Origin: Micromonospora purpureochromogenes
Lineage (GTDB): Bacteria > Actinomycetota > Actinomycetes > Mycobacteriales > Micromonosporaceae
DNA: 64,000 nt
Assembly (NCBI RefSeq): GCF_900091515.1
Contig: NZ_LT607410.1
Location: 930,001-994,000 of the forward strand
Direction of reading: 5' to 3'
The position numbers and the translations under genes were made by a program. The notes under the pieces are model-generated. The model had not been told where the DNA came from and did no database searches. It saw nothing but the letters and a program-made list of their open reading frames with translations. Positions 34,181 to 36,524 of the stretch are shown in pieces (position 1 is the stretch's first letter; each line of letters begins with the position of its first letter).

Positions 34181-34960
34181 GTGACCATCAGCTCCACCGA
34201 GACGGACCTCGGCCGGACCCGGCGCGCCCGGCGGATCGGCCGGGCGCTGACCGAGGCGCACCCCGACGCGCACTGTGAACTCGACCACTCCAACGCGTTG
34301 GAGCTGGCCGTCGCCACCATCCTCTCCGCGCAGTGCACCGACAAGAAGGTCAACGAGGTCACCCCGAAGCTCTTCGTGCGCTACCCGACGGCGGCCGACT
34401 ACGCCGGGGCCGACCGGGCGGAACTGGAGGAGCTGATCCGGCCGACCGGCTTCTACCGCAACAAGACCGACTCGCTGATCAAGCTGGGTCAGGCCCTGGT
34501 CGAGCGGTACGACGGCAGGGTCCCCGGCAGGCTGGCCGACCTGGTGACGCTGCCCGGGATCGGCCGCAAGACCGCCAACGTCATCCTCGGCAACGCCTTC
34601 GACGTCCCGGGGATCACCGTCGACACCCACTTCCAGCGGCTCGTGCAGCGCTGGAAGCTGACCGCGCAGACCGACCCGGTGAAGATCGAGCACGAGATCG
34701 GCGCGCTCTTCCCCAAGCGCGAGTGGACCATGCTCTCGCACCGGATCATCTTCCACGGCCGGCGGGTCTGCCACGCCCGCAAGCCGGCCTGCGGGGCCTG
34801 CACGCTGGCGAAGCTCTGCCCGTCGTACGGGACCGGCCCGACCGAGCCGGCCGCCGCCGCGAAGCTGCTCAAGGGCCCCCGGGCCCGGGACCTCGCGGCC
34901 GCCGCCGGGGTCGACCCCGAGCTGGTGCCGCGGCAGGCCGTCGCCGCGGAGGTGCCGTGA
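34181..34960 (+). CDS. nth: Endonuclease III
   Basis: 259 residues from GTG 34181. DNA glycosylase/AP lyase of base excision repair that removes oxidised pyrimidines. The helix-hairpin-helix [11 protein letters not shown] contains catalytic Lys130, VDTHF gives Asp148, and the iron-sulfur loop C197-x6-C204-x2-C207-x5-C213 is complete. The last 45 residues form an Ala-rich extension. The stop overlaps the GTG of the thioredoxin-like gene (GTGA). The order nth, thioredoxin-like, NUDIX, marP is conserved with mycobacteria (Rv3674c-Rv3671c as recalled). Confidence 0.95.
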
Positions 34961-35655
34961 ACCGTCGGCTGGCTGCCCTGCTCGTCCCCGCGCTGCTGGC
35001 CGTCGCCGGCTGCACCGCCACCGGTCAGGGCAGCGCCACCACCCCCACCGCCCGAGCCGAACGCCCCTCGCCGTTCGCCGACTGCGCGACGCTCACCCGC
35101 CCGCCGGCCACGATCGGTGACGCCACGCCTGGCGCTGCCGCGACCGGCACCGCGACGCCGGGCGCCGCCGCGACCGCCACTGCCACGCTCGATGCGGCCG
35201 CGCCGGCCGCCACCGGGACGGGGGGTGCCGGGCCGGTGCTGCCGGGCCTGATCCTCTCCTGCTTCACCGGCGGCACGCCGGTGGCGCTGCGGGACGTCCG
35301 GGGCCCCGCCGTGGTCAACGTCTGGGCCTCCTGGTGCCCGCCCTGCCGCAAGGAGCTGCCCGCCTTCCAGCGGCTCAGTGAGCAGACGGCCGGCCGGCTC
35401 CAGGTGATCGGCGTCAACAGCCGGGACACCCGCAGCGCCGCCCAGTCCATCGGCGAGGACTACGGCATCCGCTTCCCGATGCTGTTCGACCAGGGCGAGG
35501 CGCTGCAACGGGAGCTGGGGCGCAACGCCCTCCCACTGACCATCCTCGTCGACGCCCAGGGCCGGGTACGCCACACCGACGCCACCGGCGCCCTCGACCA
35601 CGCCCGGCTCGCCGCGCTGGTCCGGCAGCACCTCGGCGTGCAGGTGTCCCGATGA
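34957..35655 (+). CDS. TlpA/ResA-like thioredoxin-fold lipoprotein
   Basis: 232 residues from a GTG overlapping the nth stop. The leader [15 protein letters not shown] ends in a lipobox with Cys near residue 19. A low-complexity Ala/Thr/Pro stretch with two near-identical 10-residue units ([10 protein letters not shown] and [10 protein letters not shown]) spans about 53-85. The thioredoxin domain then has [19 protein letters not shown], active-site CxxC near 128-131, and a cis-Pro loop [13 protein letters not shown]. It likely reduces or oxidises thiols of exported proteins on the outer membrane face. Its stop overlaps an ATG that opens the repeat at 35652. Confidence 0.9.
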
Positions 35656-35832
35656 GCGCGAGGAGCGAGCCGGTCCTGCGAGTCCCGCAGTCGCGAACGA
35701 AGGTGGCACCGTGAGCGCGAGGAGTGAGCCGGTCCTGCGAGTCCCGCAGTCGCGAACGAAGGTGGCACCGTGAGCGCGAGGAGCGAGCCGGTCCTGCGAG
35801 CCCCGCAGTCGCGAATAGAGGTCACTCCGTGA
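35652..35832 (+). repeat. Three 59-bp tandem repeats, each an overlapping 20-codon mini-ORF
   Basis: Units 35653-35711, 35712-35770 and 35771-35829. Unit 2 differs from unit 1 at one base (a silent change); unit 3 differs mainly in its last third. Each holds a complete mini-ORF (35652-35714, 35711-35773, 35770-35832) that starts ATG or GTG, encodes [16 protein letters not shown] plus five residues, and stops at a TGA inside GTGA, where the next start lies. AAGGTGG (units 1 and 2) or GAGGT (unit 3) stands about 7 nt before the next start. The first ATG overlaps the thioredoxin-like stop and the last GTGA is the start of the NUDIX gene. Whether the peptides are made is unknown. Confidence 0.9.
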
Positions 35833-36524
35833 CCCGCCCGCCGGCCTGGATCGACCCGCTGCTCGGTCGGCTCGGCACCGCCCGGGTGGAGGACTTCACC
35901 CGGCTCACCACGCCCGAGGAGGGCGGCCGGGAGAGCGCGGTGCTGGTGCTGCTCGGCGAGGAGCCCGGCGCCGGCCCGGACGTGCTGGTGCTCCAGCGGG
36001 CCGCGACCCTGCGCAACCACGCCGGCCAGCCGGCCTTCCCCGGCGGCGCTGCCGACCCGGAGGACGCCGACGCCGCCGCGACCGCGCTGCGCGAGGCGAA
36101 CGAGGAGGTCGACCTCGACCCGGCCAGCGTGACCGTGCTGGCCGAGCTGCCCAGGCTGTGGATCCCGGTCAGCGACTTCGTGGTGACCCCGGTGCTGGCC
36201 TGGTGGCACGCGCCGCACCCGGTGCACCCCCGGGAGCCGGCCGAGGTCGCCCACGTCGCCCGGCTGCCCGTCGCCGAGCTGGTCGACCCGGAGAACCGGA
36301 TGCGGGTACGCCACCCGAGCGGCTGGATCGGGCCCGCGTTCTCCGTGCGCGGCATGCTGGTCTGGGGCTTCACCGCCGGGGTGCTCGCCACGCTCCTGGA
36401 GATGGGGGGCTGGGCCCGCCCATGGCCGCGTGGCCGGGTGATCGAACTGCCGCCCGCCGGGGCCACCCCGGCGCCCTCCGCCGGCACCGACGAGGTCGAC
36501 GAGATGGCTGGCCCGCTGACCTGA
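35829..36524 (+). CDS. NUDIX hydrolase (CoA pyrophosphatase type)
   Basis: 231 residues from GTG 35829, which overlaps the last mini-ORF stop and has GAGGT 7 nt upstream. The NUDIX box is around FPGGAADPEDADAAATALRE and ANEEVDL, residues about 73-98, with the REx2EE core intact. The preceding LRNHAGQPAFPGG is the hallmark of NudL/CoA diphosphatases, which split CoA to phosphopantetheine and 3',5'-ADP. It is probably cytosolic. The conserved neighbour marP starts 58 bp after its stop. Confidence 0.9.
   Translation: MTRPPAWIDPLLGRLGTARVEDFTRLTTPEEGGRESAVLVLLGEEPGAGPDVLVLQRAATLRNHAGQPAFPGGAADPEDADAAATALREANEEVDLDPASVTVLAELPRLWIPVSDFVVTPVLAWWHAPHPVHPREPAEVAHVARLPVAELVDPENRMRVRHPSGWIGPAFSVRGMLVWGFTAGVLATLLEMGGWARPWPRGRVIELPPAGATPAPSAGTDEVDEMAGPLT

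Follow-up and report, generated by a model that had tools for sequence, protein, structure and literature searches.

A repeat array at a stop/start junction of Micromonospora purpureochromogenes as the probable local copy of a small mobile element of gene starts

A short tandem array lies between two genes in a 64,000-nucleotide stretch of Micromonospora purpureochromogenes DNA (contig NZ_LT607410.1, positions 930,001 to 994,000), hereafter the window, to which all coordinates refer. The genes and repeat units described here are all on the forward strand. An endonuclease III-like gene (34181..34960; HhH-GPD, from the list of open reading frames and Pfam PF00730) overlaps through a GTGA with a thioredoxin-like gene of the AhpC-TSA type (34957..35655; PF00578), within which a 30-bp tandem repeat is found (35121-35202). 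The stop codon of this second gene (35653-35655) provides the TGA of the array's first ATGA. The array was detected by Tandem Repeats Finder (35653-35815, period 59, 2.8 copies, 97% matches) and is directly followed by the GTG start (35829) of a NUDIX gene (35829..36524; PF00293), whose protein has relatives in every one of the 151 genus genomes searched, including that of the host. Each of the three repeat units has a 47-nt core and a 12-nt tail: unit 1 (35652..35710) with core 35652-35698 and tail 35699-35710, unit 2 (35711..35769) with core 35711-35757 and tail 35758-35769, and unit 3 (35770..35828) with core 35770-35816 and tail 35817-35828.

A preliminary description of this DNA had proposed that the three 59-bp units (35652-35828) are also three 20-codon mini-ORFs, and the coordinates of the open reading frames agree with it: the mini-ORFs of units 1, 2 and 3 occupy 35652-35714 (ATG), 35711-35773 (GTG) and 35770-35832 (GTG), respectively, and each encodes 20 amino acids. 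The four stop/start overlaps that it placed between the thioredoxin-like and NUDIX genes were also found, all of them of four nucleotides (NTGA). In addition, the purine-rich ribosome site that it assigned to every unit is present as a GAAGG or AGAGG that begins some 11-12 nt ahead of every next start; for example, the tail of unit 1 opens with the Shine-Dalgarno-like GAAGG. A single silent base separates units 1 and 2, as had been noticed, and the encoded peptide is therefore kept between these two. Unit 3 encodes a different one, so the peptide is not conserved across the whole array.

Copies of the repeat are dispersed through the host genome. The array gave 42 blast matches to its own 6.67-Mb genome, itself included, and a profile of the unit merged the host copies into 38 arrays with 72 units (19 single, 10 double, 5 triple, 2 quadruple, and 2 quintuple). 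Two short core patterns, allowing up to 3 mismatches, had 76 and 61 genome matches, and when read backwards they had 5 and 1. Two kinds of core have been distinguished, type A, which runs from D to Y over 47 nt (GTGAGCGCGAGGAGTGAGCCGGnnnTGCGAGCCCCGCAGTCGCGAAC), and type B, of 45 nt with GTGCAGCGCAGCGGAG in the middle; the tail that leads from the core to the next start is variable, mostly of 12-15 nt. Beyond the host, the array matched 37 of 37 genus genomes, and every genus genome among those listed in two wider searches (38/38 and 34/34); 95 and 193 further genomes of these searches, all unmatched, presumably lie outside the genus. At the family level, 85 of 200 genomes matched, and they represent 22 of 44 genera. 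At the order level (blastn, E ≤ 1e-6, in a sample from which mycobacteria are possibly absent), 36 of 249 genomes and 3 of 68 genera matched, all of them in the host's family. Two weak matches beyond this family, from the search that gave the 37 genus genomes (E 2.4e-4 and 6.8e-4), have been taken as chance. Micromonospora okii and M. terminaliae are among the carriers, and in another genus of the family (L328) the gene upstream of the array stops, as judged by eye, at the first DTGA. The element had no match in the phage records searched. One plasmid record did match, M. terminaliae pLB1 (24.9 kb), in four places; in one of them (L341), a one-unit copy lies between acyltransferase and glycerol-3-phosphate dehydrogenase genes, and its two ends agree with the annotated stop and start.

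The position of these arrays relative to genes was determined with gene calls from a simple codon-usage ORF caller. In the host, the upstream gene stops exactly at the first DTGA in 26 of the 38 arrays, with two more overlapping as TGATG, and a co-oriented downstream gene is present at 36. The reading frame leads into this downstream gene in 28 arrays, by relay in 25 and by in-frame fusion in 3 (in one case, L040, the first start of the array already reads in frame into the downstream gene), and both ends are right in 25. The 10 host arrays whose frame reaches no downstream gene comprise five without their first start codon (among the copies viewed, L031 is located within an open gene and has lost its start codon), three in which the relay leaves the array, and two (L012 and L045) that no co-oriented gene follows. 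A similar picture was obtained for 80 arrays from relatives, which were the best-scoring of at least 150 places and hence rich in multi-unit arrays: the upstream stop is at the first DTGA in 61, a co-oriented gene follows in 77, the frame leads into it in 71 (66 relays and 5 fusions), and both ends are right in 55. NTGA overlaps are also common where no array is present, joining 27 of 72 array-free same-strand adjacent gene pairs in the host stretches (Fisher p = 0.0026 against the arrays) and 27 of 96 adjacent pairs of any orientation (Fisher p = 2.8e-5). Arrays thus favour NTGA junctions, or survive best there, and the preference over same-strand pairs is moderate. One array (L029) sits on the start codon of a gene that lacks a co-oriented upstream neighbour, which suggests that the target is the start codon and not the stop.

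The relay with an exact 59-nt period, as proposed earlier, holds for the array of the window; it is not general, since among 197 internal periods a value of 59 was found 102 times, 60 was found 62 times, and the remainder were 62 (20), 61 (6), 56 (4), 58 (2), and 46 (1). Periods of 59, 62, and 56 produce the 4-nt hop from one mini-ORF to the next, and a period of 60 gives a single ORF that reads straight through the units. The exact relay is thus one of two ways in which the frame is solved. The third frame class (1 mod 3) accounts for only 4 of 105 array-level periods (binomial p = 1e-13 under equal thirds, a value that shared ancestry inflates). From this mixture of periods and the rarity of the third class, it seems that the delivery of a reading ribosome is kept and the 59-nt period is not. 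A Shine-Dalgarno-like motif precedes 154 of the 197 internal starts, compared with 40% in shuffled sequences.

Orthologous junctions with and without the insert have been identified at four sites in all. At the thioredoxin–NUDIX junction itself, stop and start lie within 9 nt of each other, with no insert, in 62 of 110 NUDIX loci, a set that in part consists of identical sequences under two records; one unit is present in G146 (L059) and in M. okii (L090), and degenerate or interrupted units were recognized by eye in L053, L054/L080, L063, and L074. At site L035 (30 relatives plus the host) 10 loci are filled, 20 are empty, and one is a paralogue. At site L009 (again 30 relatives plus the host) the figures are 3 filled, 26 empty, and 2 other, and at site L037 they are 4, 18, and 6 of 28 loci, after 3 of 31 were dropped for a missing downstream gene. 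For example, the host reads GGTGATCCGGTGA, the insert and GATCCGGTGACGAAG at L037 where the empty L218 reads GGTGATCCGGTGACGAAG; the filled allele has GATCCGGTGA both before and after the insert, and its 120-nt upstream flank is 97% identical to that of L218. Another example is site L035, where L176 repeats GCTCTGATGA and L178 is empty. Such a repeat is not present at every filled site; in L171 and L174, for example, the two sides of the insert differ. The preliminary description had considered, among its readings, a selfish element whose spread would proceed through insertion at start codons, and had asked whether copies elsewhere sit at starts in the same phase. They were found to do so, in the orientation of the gene, with the 26 host upstream stops at the first DTGA, and with empty sites in relatives. 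The interpretation given there is supported in part; its other reading, a cassette that might multiply coupling, is a hypothesis.

Other small sequences occur at the thioredoxin–NUDIX junction. A tandem repeat of about 24 bp (GTGAGGCCGACCCCCGGTGCCC...) is placed on the same GTGA in L056 and in M. antibiotica (L078), one diverged copy of which lies near the junction in M. wenchangensis (L083), and a different short unit (GTGAGCGAGCGGAGCGAG) is present twice at the stop/start in L064/L084. Small inserts of more than one kind thus occur at this junction. In L053, the element is itself interrupted by a near-palindromic insert (GCGCATTCCG...CGGAATGCGC).

A duplication of the target was sought by comparing the tail of each first unit with the 5' flank of the same locus, using 108 of 118 arrays (10 were dropped). 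The mean shared run before the TGA was 3.48 nt, against 1.48 nt in shuffled pairings, the highest of 2000 shuffles reaching 1.86. By position, the match was 0.82 at −2 (0.34 when shuffled) and 0.75 at −3 (0.55). On average, then, tail and flank share more than chance allows, as would be expected of target duplication; the signal covers only about 3–5 nt upstream of the TGA, and 22 of the 108 arrays share 0 or 1 nt. Duplications of 8–10 nt are single cases, and a duplication of 11–13 nt spanning the whole tail was rejected, because no excess of matches is left beyond about position −5. The window array, with ATGA at its front and GTGA at its end, shows no target duplication, and its history is therefore more complex.

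The ends of the core have been examined for pairing and structure. Six single-strand folds were not better than shuffled sequences as RNA hairpins (z −0.01 to 1.58), and Rfam gave no match at E ≤ 1 between window positions 35500 and 36000. Between the two ends, columns 1-47, 2-46, 5-43, 6-42, 7-41, and 8-39 are paired in 98% of the cells. This terminal pairing amounts to six interrupted pairs, two of them changed on both sides (C6-G42 in two sequences). None of 500 shuffles reached the observed paired share or the covariation score, 48 reached two pairs changed on both sides, and 297 reached the number of pair types; the copies descend from one another, and the pairing is thus weak evidence for a structure. 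A covariation also exists between the first base (D1) and the last core base (Y47) in the first units of 118 arrays, of which 10 were dropped and one C/T row was set aside: A/T was found 4 times, A/C 2 times, G/T never, and G with a base other than T 101 times (Fisher p = 2.9e-6), the first unit of the window being one of the two exceptions. This covariation may reflect inverted ends used in mobility, or descent from a few ATG-type source copies. It is conceivable, if quite improbable, that the target is chosen by base pairing, the last core base being complementary to D1 of the occupied start codon. If this were true, the element would be a minimal nucleic acid whose ends, by pairing with DTG, steer it to start codons, the cutting being left to a host enzyme. 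Among the half-core copies viewed, none revealed a larger autonomous element with these ends: the copy with only the 5' part (L338) is a short truncated insert at a stop/start, and L034 and L041 are devoid of the 5' core half.

The array is best explained, with a probability of about 0.78, as a copy, amplified in place, of a small and selfish mobile element that inserts at gene starts and survives there by preserving translational coupling. Its position, orientation, and frame, the empty sites and the short average target duplication can all be read from the genomes compared; mobility as such is the step that they would imply. According to the model, the element, a type A or type B core plus a variable tail, would insert at a start codon, most often one in an NTGA overlap, and a putative enzyme would duplicate a few bases in the process, the start codon included. 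The 5' copy of the start would then open the mini-ORF of the element, and the 3' copy would still start the gene, with a Shine-Dalgarno-like GAAGG or GGAGG provided by the 3' end of the element. A ribosome from the upstream gene would end on the element's start, read the mini-ORF, which is presumably translated, and proceed through the next DTGA, or through an in-frame run, to the downstream gene. Since upstream ribosomes would still be delivered, insertion should cost little and be nearly neutral for the operon; the element could therefore persist, and its tandem copies would expand and contract by local duplication.

Three other explanations have been weighed against this one. The array might be a functional regulatory cassette, kept by the cell as a means of tuning, through unit number, how the downstream gene is translated, and the units do stand in frame with Shine-Dalgarno-like sites in arrays of 1–6. 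In M. tuberculosis, a link between array length and expression has been reported for a MIRU-VNTR locus that lies upstream of fpg, according to the accessible part of the report (PMC2734929). However, many orthologous sites are empty, and site L035 has four units (L168), one (L176) or none depending on the species, so that we regard a cassette of this kind as unlikely. Simple replication slippage at one locus, with a frame that fits by chance, would account for the near identity of the units within an array, which indicates that tandem duplication does amplify them locally; as a full explanation it is contradicted by the dispersed copies (38 host arrays, 36 with a co-oriented downstream gene, and all 37 genus genomes), and it is extremely improbable.

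According to the remaining alternative, selection acts on a conserved small protein or leader peptide, and the DNA repeat would be no more than its consequence. In its favour, VSARSEPGLRAPQSRT and one other 16-letter peptide make up 161 of the 230 type A units, and third codon positions are on average the most variable in columns 23–48 of 75 distinct type A cores (means of 0.16, 0.14, and 0.19 for positions 1, 2, and 3, respectively). This excess is nevertheless due to two edge columns (0.61 and 0.56), and the seven third positions between them vary by 0.04–0.11, like first and second positions. Moreover, the 230 type A units encode 39 distinct peptides, in the 11 type B units the same 3' DNA is translated from a different frame (e.g., VSARSAAERSPAVAN), and 60-bp periods fuse the units. 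Judged from these sequences, the mini-ORF peptide is not what is conserved, and selection for it is very unlikely to explain the arrays. For annotation, the element carries a warning, as a predicted N-terminus that opens with MSARSEP or VSARSAA may, in these genomes, derive from the element.

Several families of small repeats resemble this element in part. REP/BIME-type palindromic repeats are small, dispersed, non-autonomous, and intergenic, and so is the present element; unlike them, it shows no stable hairpin in the six folds (z −0.01 to 1.58), and its target is the start codon. Rickettsia palindromic elements are small mobile DNAs inserted within coding sequences and tolerated when in frame. 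The element described here also stays in frame with the host gene, although most of its copies lie between a stop and a start, and fusion to the downstream gene is limited to 3 of 38 arrays in the host and 5 of 80 in relatives. MITEs are non-autonomous and have terminal inverted repeats and target-site duplications; the element has a short signal of target duplication and weakly complementary ends, but its end pairing comprises only the six interrupted pairs, whose two-sided changes were reached by 48 of 500 shuffles. The mycobacterial interspersed repetitive units (MIRUs), reportedly described by Supply and colleagues in 1997, are another such family.

A literature search, with most subscription journals outside its reach, returned MIRU papers and no description of the present element. 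In the accessible part of a 2025 review, MIRUs are presented as mobile units whose insertion sites are start codons and whose ORF is coupled, at a spacing of −4 nt, to the gene (PMC12548453). In the available text of another source, they are interspersed units of 40–100 bp found in 41 places in strain H37Rv, with a copy number that varies between isolates, and repeat length was linked to expression at one MIRU locus of M. tuberculosis (PMC2734929). To the extent that these partial texts describe them, MIRUs and the element are both short interspersed tandem repeats (38 arrays in the host, with 196 of 197 periods of 56–62 bp and one of 46), and both are placed at start codons with the −4 coupling (the upstream stop coincides with the first DTGA in 26 of 38 arrays, with 25 relays and 3 fusions into the gene that follows). 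MIRUs are described in these excerpts as mobile; for the element, movement is what we infer from filled and empty junctions at four sites. A difference is that many arrays of the element have 60-bp periods that fuse the units in frame. The likeness is by description of MIRUs, as far as the partial sources give it, and not by MIRU sequence. This analogy suggests that the element works like a MIRU, and would thus be of a known kind, carried by another family of actinomycetes. If so, the many filled and empty sites at hand could be used to measure what the coupling is worth to a gene and to trace how such elements move, and the MIRU way of life, that of a mobile DNA hiding in translational coupling, would extend to an element of another actinomycete family.
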